NCBI RefSeq assembly: GCF_947241125.1
Contig: NZ_OX365700.1
Coordinates: 2,016,001-2,080,000 of the forward strand
Length of the DNA stretch: 64,000 bases
Reading direction: 5' to 3'
From: Nitrospira tepida
GTDB lineage: Bacteria; Nitrospirota; Nitrospiria; Nitrospirales; Nitrospiraceae
This document shows positions 42,266 through 62,256 of this stretch, piece by piece (position 1 is the stretch's first letter; the number at the start of each line of letters is the position of its first letter). Below the pieces are notes generated by a model. It ran no database searches. It saw nothing but the letters and a program-made list of their open reading frames with translations, and was not told the origin of the DNA. The translations under genes were made by a program, and so were the position numbers.

Positions 42266-43444
42266 CTAAGGGGCTTTGGTCTTGTCAGCCGAGCGCTCCG
42301 ACCCAGAACTGTTCACCAACTGTTCACCGTGACCGTGCTTCCGGTCGTGGTGTTCCTGGAGCCTGCGCCCGGCTTCAATGAGGTCAGATCTCTTCACGAT
42401 GTGGTACCGACGGTAGACGGAATCGGTCTTGTGACCACTGATTGCCATCGCGACCTTTCTTGGCACCCCGGCATCCTCCATGTTACTGACTGCTGTTCGA
42501 CGGAAGTCGTGGATTAACGCCCCACGATAGCGCCGGTTTCCAACAAAACGCCCCTTAGGATTTTCAAATCGCCCGAGTCCAGCTTTGACGCAGGCGGTTC
42601 GCCATGAACTCTTGATGGAAGCCAGTTTTTTCCCGCTAAGGTGACAGACCCACCGGCAATCCGGATACAGGTCCGAAGTGTGCTTATACCATGCGGCGAG
42701 GACATCGTAAAGGTCCCCGCCCATCACAGCGACTCGTTCTTCTTCCGTCTTCGTAGTCTCTGACGCAAGCCGGATCTCGACGTTCCGCTTCTGATGATCG
42801 AAGTATACCTGAGGCCATTCGAGATTCATGGTCTCACCTTCGCGCGTCCCCAGCCAATACTCAATCGTGACCGGGATGCGAGCGTGCGGCGGCAGCAAGG
42901 CTCTAACCTTCACAAATTCCTGCCACGAGCGGTAACCAGAGCGCGGGGGTGACTCTTTCAATTTGGTCCACTGTGGGACCGAGGTCACGAGCGGCGGCTT
43001 CCCCGCAAGCCCCAAGCGGTACGCGCGAAGCAAGAAGGACATCCGTCTATTGACACGCGCCGGACTCAATCCGTTCTCGCGCCACTCGGTTGCCCAATTG
43101 CGAAGGTCCGTTGCGCTCACTGTCTCGGCGAGCATATTCCCCGCGAAAGCGCTCCAGAAGGCATGAAGCTGTTCTGCATTCTTGAGGGACTTGTAGCTAT
43201 TTGCCTTGTAATCAGAAACGACGAGCTGGGTCAGCTCTCTGACCTTGGTCTCCATTTGCTGCGGCCAGCCAAAGAGGCCCCCATAGTAGCGTTCGTGCAA
43301 TGTCTGGAGCACACGGCCTGCTGTCTCCCGCGTGCCATGAATGACCTTGCGGATATTGGGCCGGCCACGGCCCTGGTGCCACTTAATAAGATACCGCTTC
43401 TCCCCGATGCGTGTGACCGTGCCGCCTCCCGATCTTTTCCCCAT
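42266..43444 (-). CDS. tyrosine recombinase/integrase
   Basis: 392 aa. An N-terminal SAM-like core-binding region (residues 70-170) leads to the catalytic domain with Arg in YWLGTREGETMNLEW, HxxR in LIHDFRRTAVSN, the second His in ISGHKT and the Tyr nucleophile in SVYRRYHIV. All catalytic residues are present. Its gene points at the tRNA-Met repeat 14 bp beyond its stop, as usual for tRNA-targeting integrases. Its C-terminal codons contain the TGTTCACC arm-like pair. A ribosome site is weak. Confidence 0.93.
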   Translation of the reverse strand: MGKRSGGGTVTRIGEKRYLIKWHQGRGRPNIRKVIHGTRETAGRVLQTLHERYYGGLFGWPQQMETKVRELTQLVVSDYKANSYKSLKNAEQLHAFWSAFAGNMLAETVSATDLRNWATEWRENGLSPARVNRRMSFLLRAYRLGLAGKPPLVTSVPQWTKLKESPPRSGYRSWQEFVKVRALLPPHARIPVTIEYWLGTREGETMNLEWPQVYFDHQKRNVEIRLASETTKTEEERVAVMGGDLYDVLAAWYKHTSDLYPDCRWVCHLSGKKLASIKSSWRTACVKAGLGRFENPKGRFVGNRRYRGALIHDFRRTAVSNMEDAGVPRKVAMAISGHKTDSVYRRYHIVKRSDLIEAGRRLQEHHDRKHGHGEQLVNSSGSERSADKTKAP

Positions 43445-43471
43445 GGATCCCCTTCAACTGATTTAGCTCGA

Positions 43472-43801
43472 TCAGCTAGCCTTGGAATCAACTTGTCTTG
43501 GAACAGAACGTACTTTCTTGGCGCTGGCCGTTAACGGCGGCGGTGAATCATAGGTCCTTCGCTGGCGCTCTTCCCACTGCGCGACATCGCTCGGATGGAT
43601 GCGCCACCGAGGACGGCGCCCTTTCCCTAGTCTGATTCCAGGTATCCCGTCGGGTTGACCGAGCACGTCGCTGTACAGGTAGTCCGGAGTGACCCGCAGG
43701 CGTTGCGCCAGTTGCTGTACGGTCATGTACTGGTCTGCGGCCTGCTGGGCATTCGCACTGGTCGTGGTGAGTGCTTCCCCTCGAAGTGATCGCATTTTCA
43801 T
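43472..43801 (-). CDS. excisionase-like helix-turn-helix protein
   Basis: 109 aa. Residues 26-80 form a MerR/excisionase-type winged HTH (YMTVQQLAQRLRVTPDYLYSDVLG, IRLGKGRRPRWRIHPSDVAQWEERQ split over recognition helix and wing). It is encoded immediately upstream of the integrase, in the same direction, as Xis genes often are. It may be a directionality factor or repressor of the integrase. The start has an AGAGGT ribosome site. Confidence 0.8.
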   Translation of the reverse strand: MKMRSLRGEALTTTSANAQQAADQYMTVQQLAQRLRVTPDYLYSDVLGQPDGIPGIRLGKGRRPRWRIHPSDVAQWEERQRRTYDSPPPLTASAKKVRSVPRQVDSKAS

Positions 43802-52393: not shown

Positions 52394-52615
52394 TCATGCG
52401 TGATGTGAACGGTGGACATGCGAGTGGTCCTGGTGCTCGCCGTGGAGGAGCCGTTCGGGCCGCTCGATGACTTCGGTCTGGCCGCCCGCGAGCTGGTTCA
52501 ATAAGTTGAGTAAATCGTCTGCCTCTCGGTGATTGGGCATGCTGATGTCGTCCGTCGTAACTGTCAGGGTGCCGTCCGGCGCGATGTGCACGCGAATGGC
52601 GTCGGGCCTGTGCAT
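52394..52615 (-). CDS. small acidic/His-ended protein
   Basis: 73 aa. Residues 1-45 (AIRVHIAPDGTLTVTTDD, EADDLLNLLNQLAGG) suggest a beta hairpin and a helix; the C-terminus is His-rich (HGEHQDHSHVHRSHH). Unknown family. It lies in the same leftward series, overlapping the preceding gene's alternative start. Confidence 0.5.
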   Translation of the reverse strand: MHRPDAIRVHIAPDGTLTVTTDDISMPNHREADDLLNLLNQLAGGQTEVIERPERLLHGEHQDHSHVHRSHHA

Positions 52616-52989: not shown

Positions 52990-54516
52990 CTAGGCCGCGT
53001 ACATGCGGGGGCTCGGTCCCTGCGCGGCCTCAGCCTTGTCCATTAGATAGGGGCCGGGGTAGCTGGCGGAGAGGTACCGGTAATTGGCTTGCGAGCGCAG
53101 CTCTTTGAGCTGGTCCGCGGCGCGGATGGAGACCGGGATGATGTAGGCGCTCGCTTCTTCCAGGGAGCAACCGAGTTGCCAGCTCAGCTCGCAACAGGTC
53201 CGGATCTCGTCGCCGGTCCAGCCTTGGTCTGGTGGCTGAGCCATCTCGGCTGGGATCCGGAAATGTTTGCGATAGATGGCCCAGATGGTTTCCCGCTCGG
53301 CTGCCGAAGGCAGATCGAAGAACACGACGCCGTACTTGAAGCGGCGGAGCAGCTCCGGCGGGAGCGCGCTCACGTTGTTGCTGGTGGCGATGAAGAGGAC
53401 ATTGTCATCGGCCACGGCGCTGACGACGCCGAGCGCCTGGCGCAGCTGGCCTTCCGATTGACCGACGAGCGACGCCTTCATCGCGCCGAGGTCGAAGCAA
53501 ATCGCGGGCACGCCGGCTTCCGTGCCGCTGGCTTTGGCGACCATGGATTTGCACGTCCCCGGCGGGCCGACGAAGATGATGCCTCTCGCCTTGTGATCCT
53601 GCATATAGGTGAGCAAGGTCCCCAGCATGGAGACGGTGACGCCCGACGAGTCCTGATTGGAGGAGAGGGAGCCGCTGAACATTTTCTCGATTTCATCAAG
53701 GAAGACGACGGCCTTCGGCGGATCGTTGCCTTTGAAGAGTTTCGCGAGGAAGTCTTTGGCGGCTTGCACGCCGCCAATGTCGTGGAACCGTTCGTTCCCG
53801 CCCCACACGGAGAGCCCGGGTGTGGCGTTGATCATCTGCCGTTTCCGTTCCCAGAGCCGCGCCAGGTTGATGCCGTTCCGTTTGCTCAGCGACAGGGCCA
53901 CGACCTGTTCGGCCGGAAAAGCCGCGAGCCCCTGGAGGGCGGAGACGGCCTGCGCCATCGCCTCGTCTGGAGGAGTTTCGATCTGGGCCTGCACGCATTG
54001 GTCCTTGATGATCGCGGCCAGTTGCTCCCGCCCCGGCAGGGTTTCTTCCAGGACCAGGAGATCATGGAAGAGTTCCGCGGGTACGTCGATCGCCGGAGCC
54101 AGCAAGACGAGGGTCGCCGGTTTGCCCTTGAAGAGGTCGCGCAAATTCCAGATGCCTTGGGAGACGAACTCGTTGCGGATGAAGCGGTGGGCGTTGTGAA
54201 AGAAAACGACGCTCTTCGGAGGCACATTTGCAAGGAGCTTGAGGGTTTCCGAGGGATTCATCGTGACGTTGGACTTGGTACTGCCGAGCAGCGTCGCCAG
54301 GGCTTTCTCGGCTCCGCTGTTGACGGGCATGAGCCCGCGGCTGACGTCCCAGGAGAAGACGGGGTCTTCCTGATCGGATCCAGGACTTCGCAACCCGTAG
54401 GTCCGGACCAGGCCGATCGTCGCGGCGGGATCGGGTGTGGTGATGGCGAGGAGCGGAACCGAAACCCTGCGGGCGCGGACGAACTGCGCCACGAGATCAG
54501 GCATGGAAGTCTGCAT
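52990..54516 (-). CDS. Ycf46-like AAA ATPase with permuted Walker motifs
   Basis: 508 aa. The N-terminal half (residues 1-240) resembles the non-catalytic N-domain of Ycf46 proteins (KSVVFFHNAHRFI, LLVLEETLPGREQL). The AAA core is in an unusual order: IGGVQAAKDFLAKLF, then a Walker B strand (AVVFLDEIEKMFSGS, about 268-282), then Walker A (IIFVGPPGTCKSM, about 313-325), the pore-loop region (LVGQSEGQLRQAL) and sensor 1/arginine region (VLFIATSNNVSALPPELLRRF). Normally Walker A comes first. Walker A also has Cys for Gly (GTCKS). It is probably an active but permuted ATPase of the element's DNA metabolism. Confidence 0.82.
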   Translation of the reverse strand: MQTSMPDLVAQFVRARRVSVPLLAITTPDPAATIGLVRTYGLRSPGSDQEDPVFSWDVSRGLMPVNSGAEKALATLLGSTKSNVTMNPSETLKLLANVPPKSVVFFHNAHRFIRNEFVSQGIWNLRDLFKGKPATLVLLAPAIDVPAELFHDLLVLEETLPGREQLAAIIKDQCVQAQIETPPDEAMAQAVSALQGLAAFPAEQVVALSLSKRNGINLARLWERKRQMINATPGLSVWGGNERFHDIGGVQAAKDFLAKLFKGNDPPKAVVFLDEIEKMFSGSLSSNQDSSGVTVSMLGTLLTYMQDHKARGIIFVGPPGTCKSMVAKASGTEAGVPAICFDLGAMKASLVGQSEGQLRQALGVVSAVADDNVLFIATSNNVSALPPELLRRFKYGVVFFDLPSAAERETIWAIYRKHFRIPAEMAQPPDQGWTGDEIRTCCELSWQLGCSLEEASAYIIPVSIRAADQLKELRSQANYRYLSASYPGPYLMDKAEAAQGPSPRMYAA

Positions 54517-55197: not shown

Positions 55198-57453
55198 TCA
55201 ACTGCACTTCGTCCAGCTGCAGTGTGGGCAGACCAGACAATTCTCCTGCCGAATGGTGCCCTGGTTGCATTGCGGGCAGGGAGGGAGTCCCTCGCCGTTC
55301 TCTTTGATCAGCTGGCTCATGCGGAGTGCTCGGATGATGGCGGCCGGGATACTGGCAACCGAGCCGTACCGCTGGTTGGCCTTTTCCAGTTGTTCGAGCA
55401 AGGCCTCCACAGGCACACCCGATCGCAAGGAGATGGAGAGGACCCGGGCAAAGGATTCGTAGATTTCCGCGTTGCTGGCCTCGACGGGCGTGTGGATGAA
55501 GACTTCGAGCGGTCTGGTCTTGAGAGTTGAGATCGTGACGTACACATGCCCGTCCGTCGTCTTCACATGCACCCGCTTCGCGTCCAGGACATCCGGCAGC
55601 TCGAAGGGGTGGGCAACAGGGAGGTCCGCGTCTGGCACCTGGCTTGTTCCGTTCGTGGACAGGCTCCCATTGCGGTCCGCCTTGCCCAGATTGAGCACTT
55701 GGCTGGCACGACTCCCATCGCGGTAGACGGTGATCCCGCTGCAATCGAGTTCCCATGCGAGCACATAAGCGTGGCGGACGTCTTCAACGGTTGCCATGGA
55801 GGGCAGGTTGATCGTCTTGCTGACCGCCGTGTCGCTGAACTGCTGCCAGGCAGCCTGGACCTGGACATGCTGCTCGGAGGTGAGATCGTGGGCCACTGTA
55901 AAGACCTGTTGCCAGTGGGCGGGAACGTCCTTGAGCCCGCGGCACGACCCGTGATTGGCCGCGATCTTGTCGATGAGAACGTCGTGCCACCAGCCTTCGC
56001 GCCTGGCCGTCGCTTCGAAGAGGTCGCACAGGTAGGGAAGCTTCCTGCCTTCGAGGACGTGCTTGAACCAGACCAGCGCGAACTCGGGCTCACAGCCGGC
56101 ACTGGTGTCGGCGATCATGCTGATCGACCCAGTCGGGGCCACGGTGGTCACGTAGCTGTGCCGCACCTTTCTCCCTTCCTGTTCATGCTTGCTTCCCTTC
56201 CACGCCGGATACACGCCTCGTGTGTGGGCCAGTTGCTCCGACGCGCGCCACGCCATGGCCTTCATCTGGTGTGCGAGCCGCTCGGTCAAGCGTATGGCTT
56301 CTTCGCTGCCGTAGGGAAGGCCCAACATCATCAACAGCCGTGCATATCCCATGATCCCGAGGCCGATGCGGCGGGTCTGCCGCGTCATGGCGTTGATCTG
56401 GGGGAGCGGATGGTCGTTGGCATCGATGATGTTGTCCAGGAATCGAACCGCGAGCCGGATGGTCTGGTCGAGACGCTCCCAGTCGAGCTCGTACTGATCA
56501 TGGCCGGGCAGGATCCGAAGATGCTTGGCTAAGTCGATGGAGCCAAGCGTGCAGGCATCGAAGCCATGCAGAGGGATCTCACCGCAGGGATTGGTCGAGA
56601 CGATTTCGCCCATGTTTGGAATCGGACAGGCCCGGTTCGCGCGGTCGATGAAGAAGAGCCCGGGATCGCCGGTCTTCCAGGCTTCCTCGACGATGCGATC
56701 GAAGACCAGCCGTGCGGAGATGTGTTTGATGGGCTGCATCGTGCGGGGGTTGATCAGGGCGTAGAGCCTGTCCTCCTTGACCGCGGTCATGAACTCGTCG
56801 GTAGCGGCCACGCTGATGTTGAAGTTCCGGATCTGGCCGTCGTGCGTCTTGCACCTCACGAAGTCCAGGATATCGGGGTGCTGGACATGGAGAATCCCCA
56901 TGTTCGCGCCCCTGCGGGTTCCGCCCTGGCGTACCTGTTCGGTGGCGCCGTCAATGATCTTCATGAAGGAGACCGGGCCGGATGCCACGCCGCCTGAGCT
57001 CCTCACACGATCGCCCTTCGGACGCAAATTGGAGAACGAAAACCCGGTGCCTCCGCCACTTTTGTGGATCAACAAGGCCGCAGTCACGGCATCCCCGATC
57101 GACTGCATGTCATCCTCGATGGGGATCACGAAACAGGCGGAGTACTGCTTGTGCGCGCCCGGCCGGCCGGCGTTCATCAAGGTGGGGGAATTGGGCAGGA
57201 AGGTTCGAGAGGCGAGCATCCGGCGGAACTGCTCCTCGATGGATGCCACTTCTTCATGTGTCGCCTCGTACAGGGTCTCGACCACGGCGATTTCACGGGC
57301 GACCCGTGCCCAGAGTTGGTCCACGGTTTCGACGATGTTTCCCTGGTCATCCTTGGCCAGGTACCGTTCTCGGAGGACGGTGAGAGCGTTGTCCGATAGC
57401 GGAATGTACTCCATGGTGGAGGGTGGGATCGGATCGGTCAGGTTGTTCGTCAT
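55198..57453 (-). CDS. nrdJ: class II (B12-dependent) ribonucleoside-diphosphate reductase
   Basis: 751 aa. It contains FLPNSPTLMNAGR, YSACFVIPIEDDM (first active-site Cys), KSGGGTGFSFSNLRP, the STNPCGEIPL motif with the radical Cys and Glu, and APTGSISMIADTSAG. The C-terminus ends in CPQCNQGTIRQENCLVCPHCSW, the Cys-rich tail of NrdJ. It reduces ribonucleotides with adenosylcobalamin, without oxygen dependence. On a mobile element it would raise the dNTP pool for replication. No cobalamin riboswitch is seen upstream. Confidence 0.94.
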   Translation of the reverse strand: MTNNLTDPIPPSTMEYIPLSDNALTVLRERYLAKDDQGNIVETVDQLWARVAREIAVVETLYEATHEEVASIEEQFRRMLASRTFLPNSPTLMNAGRPGAHKQYSACFVIPIEDDMQSIGDAVTAALLIHKSGGGTGFSFSNLRPKGDRVRSSGGVASGPVSFMKIIDGATEQVRQGGTRRGANMGILHVQHPDILDFVRCKTHDGQIRNFNISVAATDEFMTAVKEDRLYALINPRTMQPIKHISARLVFDRIVEEAWKTGDPGLFFIDRANRACPIPNMGEIVSTNPCGEIPLHGFDACTLGSIDLAKHLRILPGHDQYELDWERLDQTIRLAVRFLDNIIDANDHPLPQINAMTRQTRRIGLGIMGYARLLMMLGLPYGSEEAIRLTERLAHQMKAMAWRASEQLAHTRGVYPAWKGSKHEQEGRKVRHSYVTTVAPTGSISMIADTSAGCEPEFALVWFKHVLEGRKLPYLCDLFEATARREGWWHDVLIDKIAANHGSCRGLKDVPAHWQQVFTVAHDLTSEQHVQVQAAWQQFSDTAVSKTINLPSMATVEDVRHAYVLAWELDCSGITVYRDGSRASQVLNLGKADRNGSLSTNGTSQVPDADLPVAHPFELPDVLDAKRVHVKTTDGHVYVTISTLKTRPLEVFIHTPVEASNAEIYESFARVLSISLRSGVPVEALLEQLEKANQRYGSVASIPAAIIRALRMSQLIKENGEGLPPCPQCNQGTIRQENCLVCPHCSWTKCS

Positions 57454-57746: not shown

Positions 57747-58034
57747 ATGAAGTTCATTACCGTGCGAGAACTGCGAGGGCGGCCGAGCGAGGTGTGGTCG
57801 AAACTCTCACGTGACAAGGATCTGGTTCTCACGTCGAACGGGAAACCGATTGCGATCCTTTCAGCCGTGTCCGAGGAAACACTAGAAAGCTCGCTGGTCG
57901 CGCTCCGGCGGGCCCGCGCCGTCGCCGCGGTTGAAGTGATGCAGTCTCAATCTATTGCCGCCGGAACCGACAAGCTGTCTCTGGAAGAGATTAATGCTGA
58001 GATCGCGTCGACTCGGAAGACCCGGCGGCGGTGA
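57747..58034 (+). CDS. Phd/YefM-family antitoxin
   Basis: 95 aa. The N-terminus is the Phd/YefM DNA-binding fold: MKFITVRELRGRPSEVWSKL, then LVLTSNGKPIAILSAV. The C-terminal half, which binds the toxin, is helical and charged (LSLEEINAEIASTRKTRRR). Its stop overlaps the GTG of the PIN toxin by 4 nt, a typical antitoxin-toxin arrangement. It probably represses its own promoter. Confidence 0.88.
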   Translation: MKFITVRELRGRPSEVWSKLSRDKDLVLTSNGKPIAILSAVSEETLESSLVALRRARAVAAVEVMQSQSIAAGTDKLSLEEINAEIASTRKTRRR

Positions 58035-58462
58035 TCGTCGTCGTCGACACGAATGTGCTCGTGGCCGGCCTCTTGTCCCCCTTTGGCCCACCTGGTGAAA
58101 TCGTCCGCATGATTGCCTCTGGGACCCTGACCGTAGCCTATGACGCCCGAATCATGGCAGAGTACGTGGAGGTTCTCCGGCGCCCGAAGTTTTCATTCGG
58201 CAGGGAGCATGTCGACGCGTTCCTGGATCAATTGAAAGCGACGGGAACCGTTGCGGCGGGTGATCCACTCCCGGCTCGCTTGCCGGACCCGAATGACGAA
58301 CCCTTCCTGGAAGTCGCCCTGGCCGGCCGTGTCCGGTGCCTGATTACTGGAAACGTGAAGCACTTCCCCCCTGGGGCCCGACAAGGCTCTCAGATATTGA
58401 CTCCCCGTGAGTTTCTCGACTTCTACCGGAAGAGCCTTCGGGGGAAGCCTCGCCCAGGTTGA
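58031..58462 (+). CDS. PIN-domain toxin (VapC-like, COG1569)
   Basis: 143 aa. The acidic metal-binding residues of the PIN nuclease are present: IVVVDTNVLVAGLL (first Asp), AEYVEVLRRPKF (Glu), LPDPNDEPFLEVAL (two Asp) and LITGNVKHF. This subgroup of PIN toxins cleaves RNA and is neutralised by the co-encoded antitoxin. The start is GTG at 58031, coupled to the antitoxin stop. It may stabilise the element. Confidence 0.88.
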   Translation: MIVVVDTNVLVAGLLSPFGPPGEIVRMIASGTLTVAYDARIMAEYVEVLRRPKFSFGREHVDAFLDQLKATGTVAAGDPLPARLPDPNDEPFLEVALAGRVRCLITGNVKHFPPGARQGSQILTPREFLDFYRKSLRGKPRPG

Positions 58463-59417: not shown

Positions 59418-60594
59418 GGAAGGTCTGATTTATTCCTCGCGCGTGATGTGCTACGGGTAGCGCAGCACCGGTCAGGAGGCGCCCCCATGTCGCAACAGAC
59501 CTTTGCAGAAGCGAGCTTTGAACAGTATCGGAAACCGACCCGCCGCGAGCGGTTTCTGGCGGAGATGGAGCAGGTGATTCCGTGGAGCGAGCTGGCAGCG
59601 GTTATCGAGCCGTACTATCCCAAGGCGGAGGGGGCCGGGCGTCCGCCGGTCGGAGTCGAGCGAATGCTCCGTATCCATTTCCTGCAACATTGGTTCAATC
59701 TGTCTGACCCGGCGGTGGAGGAGGCCCTGTATGACTCCCGCGCCATGCGGCAGTTCGTTGGCATTGATCTGGGGCGCGAGCCTGTACCGGATGAGACGAC
59801 CATCTGCAAATTTCGGCATCTCCTGGAAGCCCATCGGTTGGGCGAGCAACTCTTTGCCTTGATCCGGACGTATCTGGCCGAGCAGGGGCTGCAGATCAGC
59901 CGGGGGACCATCGTGGATGCCACGATCATCAGCGCCCCCAGTTCCACGAAGAATCGCACGAAGGAGCGGGATCCGGAGATGCATCAGACGAAGAAGGGCA
60001 ACCAGTGGTATTTCGGGATGAAGGCCCATATTGGAGTAGACAGCCGGACGAAGCTGATTCATTCAGTGGCAGCCACCGCCGCCAATGTGCATGACAGTCA
60101 GGTGTTGCCGGAGCTGCTGCATGGACAGGAGACGCGGGTGTGGGGCGATGCCGCCTATAGTGGCCAACGCGACGTGATTCAGCAACATGTGCCTGGGGCC
60201 AAGAGCTTCGTGCAGACGAAAGCACATCGCCATCGGCCGCTGAGTGAAACCGAGCGCGCCCGGAACCGGACCAAGTCGAAGGTGCGGGCCAAAGTCGAAC
60301 ACGTGTTCTTGGTGATGAAACAGATCTTTGGATGGGCCAAAGTCCGCTACCGGGGGCTGGCGAAGAATACGAATTGGCTCTTTGTCACGTGCGGCTTAAC
60401 GAATCTGTATCTGGCGCGACGACGCCTCTTGGCGGGAACGTAGGAGACGTGTGTCCGCAGGGAGGCAGTGGGCCATTGGACGGTGGGTGAGCTCACAAAA
60501 AGGCTCACGGACCAGCAGATTCTCACCGGATAGCCCAGAGTGATCACCCCAGGAACTGGTTTCTCAGTGGAAACGTGAATTAATCAGACCTTCC
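59418..60594. mobile_element. IS5-family insertion sequence, complete
   Basis: Terminal inverted repeats match in 17 of 18 positions: GGAAGGTCTGATTTATTC at 59418 and, inverted, GGAAGGTCTGATTAATTC ending at 60594. The flanks are the 4-bp direct repeat CTAG (59414-59417 and 60595-60598), the target duplication of IS5 elements (CTAR). The element is 1177 bp with one intact transposase gene. Confidence 0.93.
59487..60443 (+). CDS. IS5-family transposase
   Basis: 318 aa. The DUF772 N-terminus (ERMLRIHFLQHWFNLSDPAVEEALYDS split over the domain) is followed by the DDE domain: IVDATIISAPSSTKN (first Asp), VWGDAAYSG (second Asp) and KSKVRAKVEHVFLVMKQIFG (Glu, with the Y-(2)-R-(3)-E context). The frame is intact. 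AGGAGG lies before the ATG at 59487. Confidence 0.95.
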   Translation: MSQQTFAEASFEQYRKPTRRERFLAEMEQVIPWSELAAVIEPYYPKAEGAGRPPVGVERMLRIHFLQHWFNLSDPAVEEALYDSRAMRQFVGIDLGREPVPDETTICKFRHLLEAHRLGEQLFALIRTYLAEQGLQISRGTIVDATIISAPSSTKNRTKERDPEMHQTKKGNQWYFGMKAHIGVDSRTKLIHSVAATAANVHDSQVLPELLHGQETRVWGDAAYSGQRDVIQQHVPGAKSFVQTKAHRHRPLSETERARNRTKSKVRAKVEHVFLVMKQIFGWAKVRYRGLAKNTNWLFVTCGLTNLYLARRRLLAGT

Positions 60595-60807
60595 CTAGTT
60601 AATTCAGTACCAACACAGTTAAAACGCCGAGTCGCTGCAGAGATCACTTTCGTCTATTGGTATTCACAACGTCGGCAGTTCGACCCCATTCGCCGGCTCT
60701 CCTTTGTTGGCTATCCCCTTCCTCGATCGTATTCGCATTCTCCTAACCGGTATTACTCGCATGAGGTTGATCACTCAATGACACCTTCGGGCAAGGAGGT
60801 TGGGACG
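60595..60807. other. non-coding region between IS5 and the TraG-like gene
   Basis: About 210 bp without a supportable gene. It presumably contains the promoter of the downstream ATPase gene; no convincing pair of boxes was found. Confidence 0.4.
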
Positions 60808-62256
60808 ATGGCTTCTCCGCTGGAACGGCTCCGTGCGCTCAACCGGGAGGGTAAACCGCGACCGGTTCATCCGGAGCTGACGTTGTTGGGATTCGGCGCG
60901 AATCTCGACGACAACCAACGGGAAGGGGTCCTTGTGATGCGGGATGCCGATCGAAGTGGTCATTTCGGCTGCCTGGGAACGACGCGGGTGGGCAAGACCC
61001 GCCTGATGGAGAATATCGTCGAGCAGGACATCAGGAAAGGTTACTCGGTGGTCGTGGTCGATCCGAAGGGAGACATCGAGTTGTTTTCAAAGGTGGTGCA
61101 AACAGCGGCCGAGTGTGGGCGGCTCAAGGAGCTGATGCTGCTCACGCCGATCTTTCCCGATGAGTCGGTCTACCTCGACCCGTTATCGAGCTACTACATG
61201 GAAGATGAACTCGTGAATCACATCGTCTCAGGGATCAAGGCGCGCGAGGATTTCTATATTGCGATTGCGACCCAGGTGGCTCAAGTCATCGTGGCAGGCT
61301 TGATCATACTCGCCAAGGCGAAGGGAATCCCTCCTCAGATCTCGTTCTACGATGTGAAGCTGCGAGCCGGTCATAAGGACCTGATGCAGTTCCGAGATAC
61401 GCTTCAGGCGTTGCCGGGGACGGAGGAACTGTGCATGGCGATCGATCAGATCACGCATGGTCCGAATATGGCGGACTTCTACGCCAAGGTCTCGACATCG
61501 CTCCAGACGATGTTGTCGGCACTGACTTTCGGCACGACGGGACGGATCATCGGAAAGGCAAAGACGAATGAATTCATTCGGCGCCTCGAATCCGGGAAAC
61601 GCGTGATCATGGTCTGCAATACCGGTAGTCTACTGACGCGCCGGACGGCTCATATTATCGCGAAGGTGTTCATCTCCATGATTCAGAGCCTGGTGGGACG
61701 CCTGTTTGCCTCCGGGCGTGCGCTTACTCCGCCCTTGTGTCTGCACATCGACGAGGGCCATAACGTGCTCTACCCCGACATCAAGGAGTTGTTCAATAAG
61801 GGCGGTGGGGCCAATATCTGGATCCATCTGTATACGCAGTCGCTCGCGCAGATCCAGGAGGAGGTCGGTCCGTACGCGGCACAGAGCATCATGGACAACA
61901 TCAGTTCCTGGGCCTACTTCCTGCTGAACCATCCGGAGACCGCGCAATACGTGGAGGATTCGACGCCGCTGGTCACTCGAGATGAGCCGATGATTGAGGT
62001 CGGTGGCCGGGTGATGATGAAGTTGACGGCGCGGCGCCAGGTCCTCCGCGATCGCGTGATGTCTCTCCCGAAACGATGGTTCTATTTCCGCACGTACGGG
62101 CAGACGTACAAGGGCCAGACCTTGGATACGACGCCGCTCTACGTAAATGTGAAGTTCCCCGTCGTCAGTCCCCTAAGGTCAGTCGAGTCCCCGGCGCCTG
62201 CCCCAGATGCCACCAAGGACGGTCCGGCTCAGGCACCGCCGCTCTCATCCGCGTGA
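60808..62256 (+). CDS. TraG/TraD-like (coupling protein-type) ATPase
   Basis: 482 aa of the TraD/TraM-like RecA-type fold. Walker A is LGTTRVGKTRLMENIV, with SVVVVDPKGDIELF following; Walker B is LCLHIDEGHNVLYPDIKELF; a QxxQ-like motif (YTQSLAQIQEEVG) and a terminal RTYGQTY region complete it. Such proteins deliver DNA to a type IV secretion channel. No N-terminal TM helices are present, so it is a soluble version. A GGAGG site supports the ATG at 60808 over 60778. It is the only transfer-type gene in the window. Confidence 0.8.
   Translation: MASPLERLRALNREGKPRPVHPELTLLGFGANLDDNQREGVLVMRDADRSGHFGCLGTTRVGKTRLMENIVEQDIRKGYSVVVVDPKGDIELFSKVVQTAAECGRLKELMLLTPIFPDESVYLDPLSSYYMEDELVNHIVSGIKAREDFYIAIATQVAQVIVAGLIILAKAKGIPPQISFYDVKLRAGHKDLMQFRDTLQALPGTEELCMAIDQITHGPNMADFYAKVSTSLQTMLSALTFGTTGRIIGKAKTNEFIRRLESGKRVIMVCNTGSLLTRRTAHIIAKVFISMIQSLVGRLFASGRALTPPLCLHIDEGHNVLYPDIKELFNKGGGANIWIHLYTQSLAQIQEEVGPYAAQSIMDNISSWAYFLLNHPETAQYVEDSTPLVTRDEPMIEVGGRVMMKLTARRQVLRDRVMSLPKRWFYFRTYGQTYKGQTLDTTPLYVNVKFPVVSPLRSVESPAPAPDATKDGPAQAPPLSSA

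Follow-up and report, generated by a model that had tools for sequence, protein, structure and literature searches.

Walker B before Walker A: a block-permuted AAA+ ATPase family of phages and mobile elements

Introduction

Can an AAA+ ATPase carry its Walker B motif ahead of its Walker A motif and still build an ordinary active site? The question is raised by a gene of Nitrospira tepida, located in the 64,000-nucleotide stretch of DNA analyzed here (hereafter the window), for which an initial annotation had reported this very arrangement. Few molecular machines have been studied as closely as AAA+ proteins, whose motifs are regarded as following a fixed order of Walker A, Walker B and sensor 1; this order is presumed in annotation and motif searches as well as in models of how force is transmitted. 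A swapped core that retains all its catalytic residues would demonstrate that the fold can accommodate altered connectivity, and the permuted family would then serve as a natural experiment, revealing which links in the chain are needed to couple ATP hydrolysis to movement of the pore loop. The best explanation, which we consider very probable, is that the gene encodes a Ycf46-type tandem AAA+ ATPase, with a degenerate first domain (D1) and a catalytic second domain (D2), in which blocks B and C of D2 have been exchanged to give the order A-C-B-D with normal active-site geometry.

Architecture of the ATPase

The ORF is intact and has a good ribosome-binding site (AAGGAG). Its D1 is in canonical order, lacks a P-loop and contains a degenerate Walker B-like strand (VVFFHNAHRF). 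Behind this D1-like domain, the motif series runs through the linker DIGGVQAAKDF, AVVFLDEIEK, LGTLLTYMQDHKA, RGIIFVGPPGTCKS and the pore loop SLVGQSE (containing LVGQSE), followed by sensor 1 LFIATSN (containing IATSN), LLRRF and the lid motif WTGDEI (Table 1). AVVFLDEIEK (269-278) stands ahead of IIFVGPPGTCKS (313-324), and no second Walker B or DE box occurs after Walker A in the 508-aa protein. The initial annotation, which had placed DEIEK (~274) before GPPGTCKS (~317), with pore loop and sensor 1 but no further Walker B behind, is thus upheld by the sequence and by the canonical profile described below. The motifs of the AAA+ superfamily (Walker A, the DE Walker B, sensor 1 and the Arg finger) are all present, and the protein departs from the superfamily in their sequence order, which is Walker B, Walker A, sensor 1. 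Pfam AAA matches it with 62.3 bits (cut-off 21.2), spread over several pieces.

Table 1. Features of the permuted ATPase gene, its cassette and the surrounding element, in window coordinates
Feature	Position	Strand	Basis
Block-permuted AAA+ ATPase, Ycf46-derived, tandem AAA architecture, 508 aa	52990..54516	-	Profile, p97 alignment, block survey
N-terminal AAA-like domain (D1), residues 1-237	53806..54516	-	Profile 7-247 collinear; model aligns with p97 D1+D2
Block C, residues 266-310: Walker B strand beta3 and alpha3, relocated ahead of Walker A	53587..53721	-	Profile piece 2
Walker B DEIEK, residues 274-278	53683..53697	-	D 94/95, E 95/95, K 95/95
Block B, residues 311-370: beta1, Walker A, alpha1, beta2, pore loop, alpha2	53407..53586	-	Profile piece 3
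Walker A GPPGTCKS, residues 317-324	53545..53568	-	Sequence, 95-sequence alignment
Pore loop LVG, residues 350-352	53461..53469	-	G 95/95
Block D, residues 371-485: sensor-1 strand, Arg finger, lid with WTGxEI	53062..53406	-	Profile piece 4
Sensor 1 Asn380	53377..53379	-	95/95
Arg392, predicted Arg finger	53341..53343	-	95/95
DUF1257-like partner, 104 aa	52640..52954	-	Profile-profile link to canonical-module family, itself Pfam DUF1257
DUF2997-like partner, 73 aa, His-rich tail	52394..52615	-	Profiles
DUF3150-like partner, 305 aa	51480..52397	-	121/133 permuted loci; member L135 above Pfam DUF3150 cut-off
Phage-type integrase	42266-43444		
Conjugative coupling protein	60778-62256		

Block order and its distribution

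A canonical profile, built from eleven canonical Ycf46-like relatives from annotated plasmids and phages, matches the ATPase in four pieces whose order, obtained without regular expressions, is A-C-B-D and not A-B-C-D. Query residues 11-259 correspond to profile positions 7-247 (A), 269-310 to 325-366 (C), 309-369 to 263-323 (B) and 371-485 to 366-496 (D), so that the canonical profile is covered with hardly any gap or overlap. The protein shares with Ycf46-like proteins a degenerate N-terminal domain and a C-terminal AAA domain, the four blocks totaling 249 bits against this profile, and departs from them in that its AAA domain is not collinear with the canonical one.

Profile searches over viral contigs and genomes returned several hundred loci, many of them repeated contigs. 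A strict Walker A regular expression overlooked some loci, and block-order counts therefore use profile matches. An automatic block caller assigned A-C-B-D to 148 of 162 unique homologous ORFs and A-B-C-D to none; among the others, block C was below threshold in seven, despite room for it, and seven were fragments. The same caller found A-B-C-D in all 71 canonical control proteins, in keeping with the earlier claim of an order permuted relative to Ycf46-like AAA proteins, and the profile search proposed with that claim is answered by the same counts. Because 148 of the 162 unique homologues share the swapped order, its origin by chance is ruled out. No intermediate with two Walker B motifs (A-B-C-B-C-D or A-C-B-C-D) was found among the 162 permuted and 71 canonical ORFs.

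Permuted homologues occur in phages and in bacterial genomes or prophages. The family covers well above a hundred phage and mobile-element contigs, members other than the Nitrospira ones being mostly in phages, and the hosts or bins of its loci include Nitrospira, Acidobacteria, Armatimonadota, Deltaproteobacteria, Planctomycetes and Bacteroidetes. The protein of a cultured Tunturiibacter phage (L001), 37.6% identical, is likewise A-C-B-D by the canonical profile. The most divergent permuted member, from a Bacteroidetes MAG (L151:2860-4446), has the Walker B VDEGEK and the P-loop GVPGSSKS; in a phage contig (L025:1026-2555) the permuted gene is disrupted by a frameshift.

PHROGs, Pfam and NCBIfam gave fragmentary matches only to the permuted ATPase. 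The best PHROGs family matches it in separate stretches, hence no PHROG with the permuted order was found. This suggests that collinear profile searches under-call block-permuted AAA proteins.

When a tree was computed from columns matched block by block, the permuted proteins grouped together as a single clade (FastTree 0.90; UFBoot 100, branch 0.82); its sister among the canonical proteins is the L002/L304/L320 group, a weak placement (66). The swapped order is an evolved, conserved state of single origin.

Conserved residues and the P-loop

Across 95 diverse aligned permuted sequences, E275, K278, G317, G320, K323, G352, N380 and R392 never vary, position 324 is Ser or Thr in all, and D274 is replaced just once, by Glu, the other 94 sequences having Asp. 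The replacement of the P-loop Gly by Cys, to which the initial annotation had drawn attention, is real at position 322 of this protein and is common to its nearest relatives (Nitrospira, L015), but it was rejected as a family trait: the same position is Ala in 45 sequences, Gly in 36, Ser in 11 and Cys in 3, and Cys is therefore a minor local variant.

The residue at position 322, Cys here and often Ala or Ser in the family, could together with the rewired core be taken to mean that the permuted domain binds ATP yet serves as a regulatory pseudo-ATPase. We judge this unlikely, given that the Walker B Glu, the P-loop Lys, the following Ser/Thr, sensor 1 and the Arg finger are invariant or nearly so, and that GxxxxAK is a known Walker A variant of MoxR AAA+ proteins (PMC5039278).

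Structure model and covariation

The AF2 model of the ATPase, based on 95 sequences, has a pLDDT of 93.5 and a pTM of 0.86, and block C forms in it a strand (269-273) and two helices (276-284 and 293-307). Foldseek TM-scores of the model to p97 are low, because this aligner works sequentially and tilting of the domains is possible, and structural similarity was therefore taken from VIA-align, in which the whole model aligns with p97 D1+D2 over 405 residues (Z 19.0, rmsd 6.5). Compared with p97 D2 alone, the rmsd is 2.5 over 204 residues.

Covariation was computed from 150 sequences (Neff 108) by mean-field DCA. When strand 269-276 was scored in 180 parallel registers, ranks one to three went to the sensor-1 strand (371-380) and rank four to beta2 (337-344), a pairing derived from a modest number of sequences and with a z of 2.9 in the register test. 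The ranking fits the expected AAA+ sheet, in which the strands are ordered beta5-beta1-beta4-beta3-beta2 (PMC5039278) and beta3 lies between beta4 and beta2. Couplings across the old alpha2/beta3 covalent junction, the two sides of which are now ~100 residues apart, rank 5, 10 and 26 of 26,565, the first two being K268-D370 and A269-A369, and are matched by just 0.07% of random boxes. Further couplings connect Walker B with Walker A (E277-S324), alpha3 with the pore-loop region (T294-K347 and L301-S349) and beta1 with beta5 (V316-F399). Covariation thus places the upstream DEIEK strand beside the sensor-1 strand and beta2, and couples it to the Walker A Ser; the refuting outcome named with the initial annotation, a DEIEK strand outside the active site, was not found. 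As for the suspected rewiring of strand order, the sheet order appears to be kept and the connections alone appear to be rewired.

Since covariation is blind to chain identity, it does not discriminate a cis-folded strand from one exchanged between subunits. The Walker B strand-helix unit, which directly follows the D1-D2 linker and might reach a neighbor, could insert into the sheet of the adjacent subunit and make the ring domain-swapped. Tight junctions, with block C running straight into beta1, and the confident single-chain AF2 model nevertheless favor cis folding, and strand exchange in trans seems to us quite improbable.

Tandem AAA proteins being common and the N-terminal half being AAA-like, one might also read the DEIEK segment as what is left of a degenerate AAA module distinct from the P-loop module, the latter having lost its own Walker B. 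This is very improbable: a collinear beta3-like strand (103-106) is already present within D1, the whole of which is matched by the profile (7-247) ahead of block C, block C supplies exactly the profile columns absent from the P-loop module, E275 and K278 are invariant, and couplings tie block C to beta4, beta2, the pore loop and Walker A. An assembly or annotation artefact, for which no supporting point was found, has a negligible probability and is refuted by the presence of the permuted gene in the complete Nitrospira moscoviensis chromosome (two copies), in the complete genome of a cultured phage and on >100 independent contigs.

A rewired core with a probably normal active site

Under the exchange of blocks B and C within D2, the evidence indicates that the swapped core still builds a normal AAA+ active site, as far as sequence conservation and covariation can tell. 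The strands of the parallel AAA+ sheet all begin at one edge, and beta-alpha units are therefore exchangeable without changing the sheet. In such an exchange, beta3 would remain between beta4 and beta2, with Walker B still opposite Walker A. The D1-D2 linker now enters the Walker B strand rather than the Walker A strand, alpha3 connects to beta1, which carries Walker A, and alpha2, which follows the pore loop, connects directly to the sensor-1 strand. The likely genetic route would be a tandem duplication of B-C, after which the first B and the last C would have been lost.

The protein is predicted to hydrolyze ATP in an oligomeric ring, with the Arg finger acting in trans, and may use its pore loop to remodel a protein substrate. 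We infer that it is most likely a ring-forming protein remodeler acting with its cassette partners. More speculatively, the block swap might be functional rather than neutral, the state of D1 or of a partner passing directly to the catalytic Glu in an allosteric mode unavailable to normal AAA+ rings, because the linker joins the Walker B strand and alpha3 joins the Walker A strand; we hold this to be a tentative idea, with the odds rather against it.

The gene cassette

In the window, the genes are transcribed in the order AAA, DUF1257-like, DUF2997-like, DUF3150-like. The initial annotation had suggested a conserved module from the linkage to DUF3150-like and DUF1257-like genes; this linkage is borne out, but the fourth gene, the DUF2997-like one, had been overlooked. 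Among 133 permuted loci, a DUF3150-like gene is found in 121, nearly always downstream and on the same strand, and a DUF1257-like gene in 105, a count that grew from 40 over a three-round profile search and may be loose; DUF2997-type genes are found in 80 and 38 loci with two profiles. Applied to the surroundings of canonical AAA genes, the profiles from the permuted loci detected DUF1257 in 28, DUF2997 in 31 and DUF3150 in 17 of 37 loci. Pfam cut-offs were passed for DUF3150 by L135 (permuted, 38.0 bits) and L320 (canonical, 86.7 bits), for DUF2997 by L091 (permuted, 48.4 bits) and L305 (canonical, 53.3 bits), and for DUF1257 by L305 (27.3 bits). The three partner families co-occur with the permuted ATPase as they do with the canonical one in the example L002. 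As the partner families are shared by both kinds of loci, the permuted AAA protein occupies the place of the canonical one in the cassette.

The partners could be adaptors, targets or regulators of the ATPase. The DUF3150-like partner is modeled with a pLDDT of 92.6; a PDB fold search with this model gave nothing better than E 0.44, and structure therefore offers no functional hint. A search of the open-access literature found no paper mentioning DUF3150. The DUF2997-like protein ends in a His-rich tail, HGEHQDHSHVHRSHHA, similar to that of L087 (HEHHTHTHTHA), and metal binding by this tail is possible.

Relation to known systems

The canonical Ycf46-like AAA+ proteins (Candidatus Manganitrophus plasmid L002; phages and plasmids L304-L330) have the same N-terminal degenerate domain, blocks and partner genes as the permuted ATPase, to which they are at most ~35% identical with blocks matched; they differ by their A-B-C-D order, in which the D1-D2 linker enters beta1. 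p97/Cdc48, a tandem D1-D2 protein of the classical AAA clade, is alike in its pore loop, its Arg finger and its alignment over D1+D2, whereas its D2 topology is canonical, its D1 is catalytic and its N-domain has no counterpart here. MoxR proteins likewise have a small non-Gly residue before the Walker A Lys, but they are of canonical order and belong to a different clade.

No earlier description of a permuted AAA+ domain was found in the open-access literature. The closest parallels come from circularly permuted GTPases, which are likewise P-loop NTPases whose motifs have been rearranged: YRG/YlqF (G4-G5-G1-G2-G3) and cpRAS (G3-G4-G5-G1-G2), the latter having its Walker B equivalent (G3) ahead of Walker A (G1), as in the permuted ATPase (PMC2430557). 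Whereas these are circular permutations, the ATPase has undergone an internal swap of two blocks: blocks A and D keep their places, rather than the old termini being joined and new ones opened inside the domain.

The host element

The window is part of a Nitrospira chromosome, and N. moscoviensis carries two copies at 95-96% identity. The integrase and coupling protein (Table 1), with the F-type transfer genes TrbC, TraU and TraG beyond the window, indicate that this copy of the ATPase gene sits in an integrative conjugative element. One end of the element is marked by this integrase together with a small, excisionase-like HTH ORF (42266-43801) and adjoins apparent hydrogenase accessory genes (~27.5-41.3 kb); no tRNA was found at this junction. 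A ribonucleotide reductase with a TSCPD domain (55198-57453) lies on the element directly upstream of the cassette, a Phd/YefM-PIN toxin-antitoxin pair (57747-58462) adjoins the module, and a DDE transposase of an IS (59448-60443) lies between the module region and the conjugation genes. Beyond the window (88432-100013 in window numbering; G000:C1, L301), the element contains a 4470-bp unit in exact tandem repetition (2.6 copies), with ORFs that include a probable transposase and a Crp-like regulator; the repetition represents either a recent amplification or an assembly effect.
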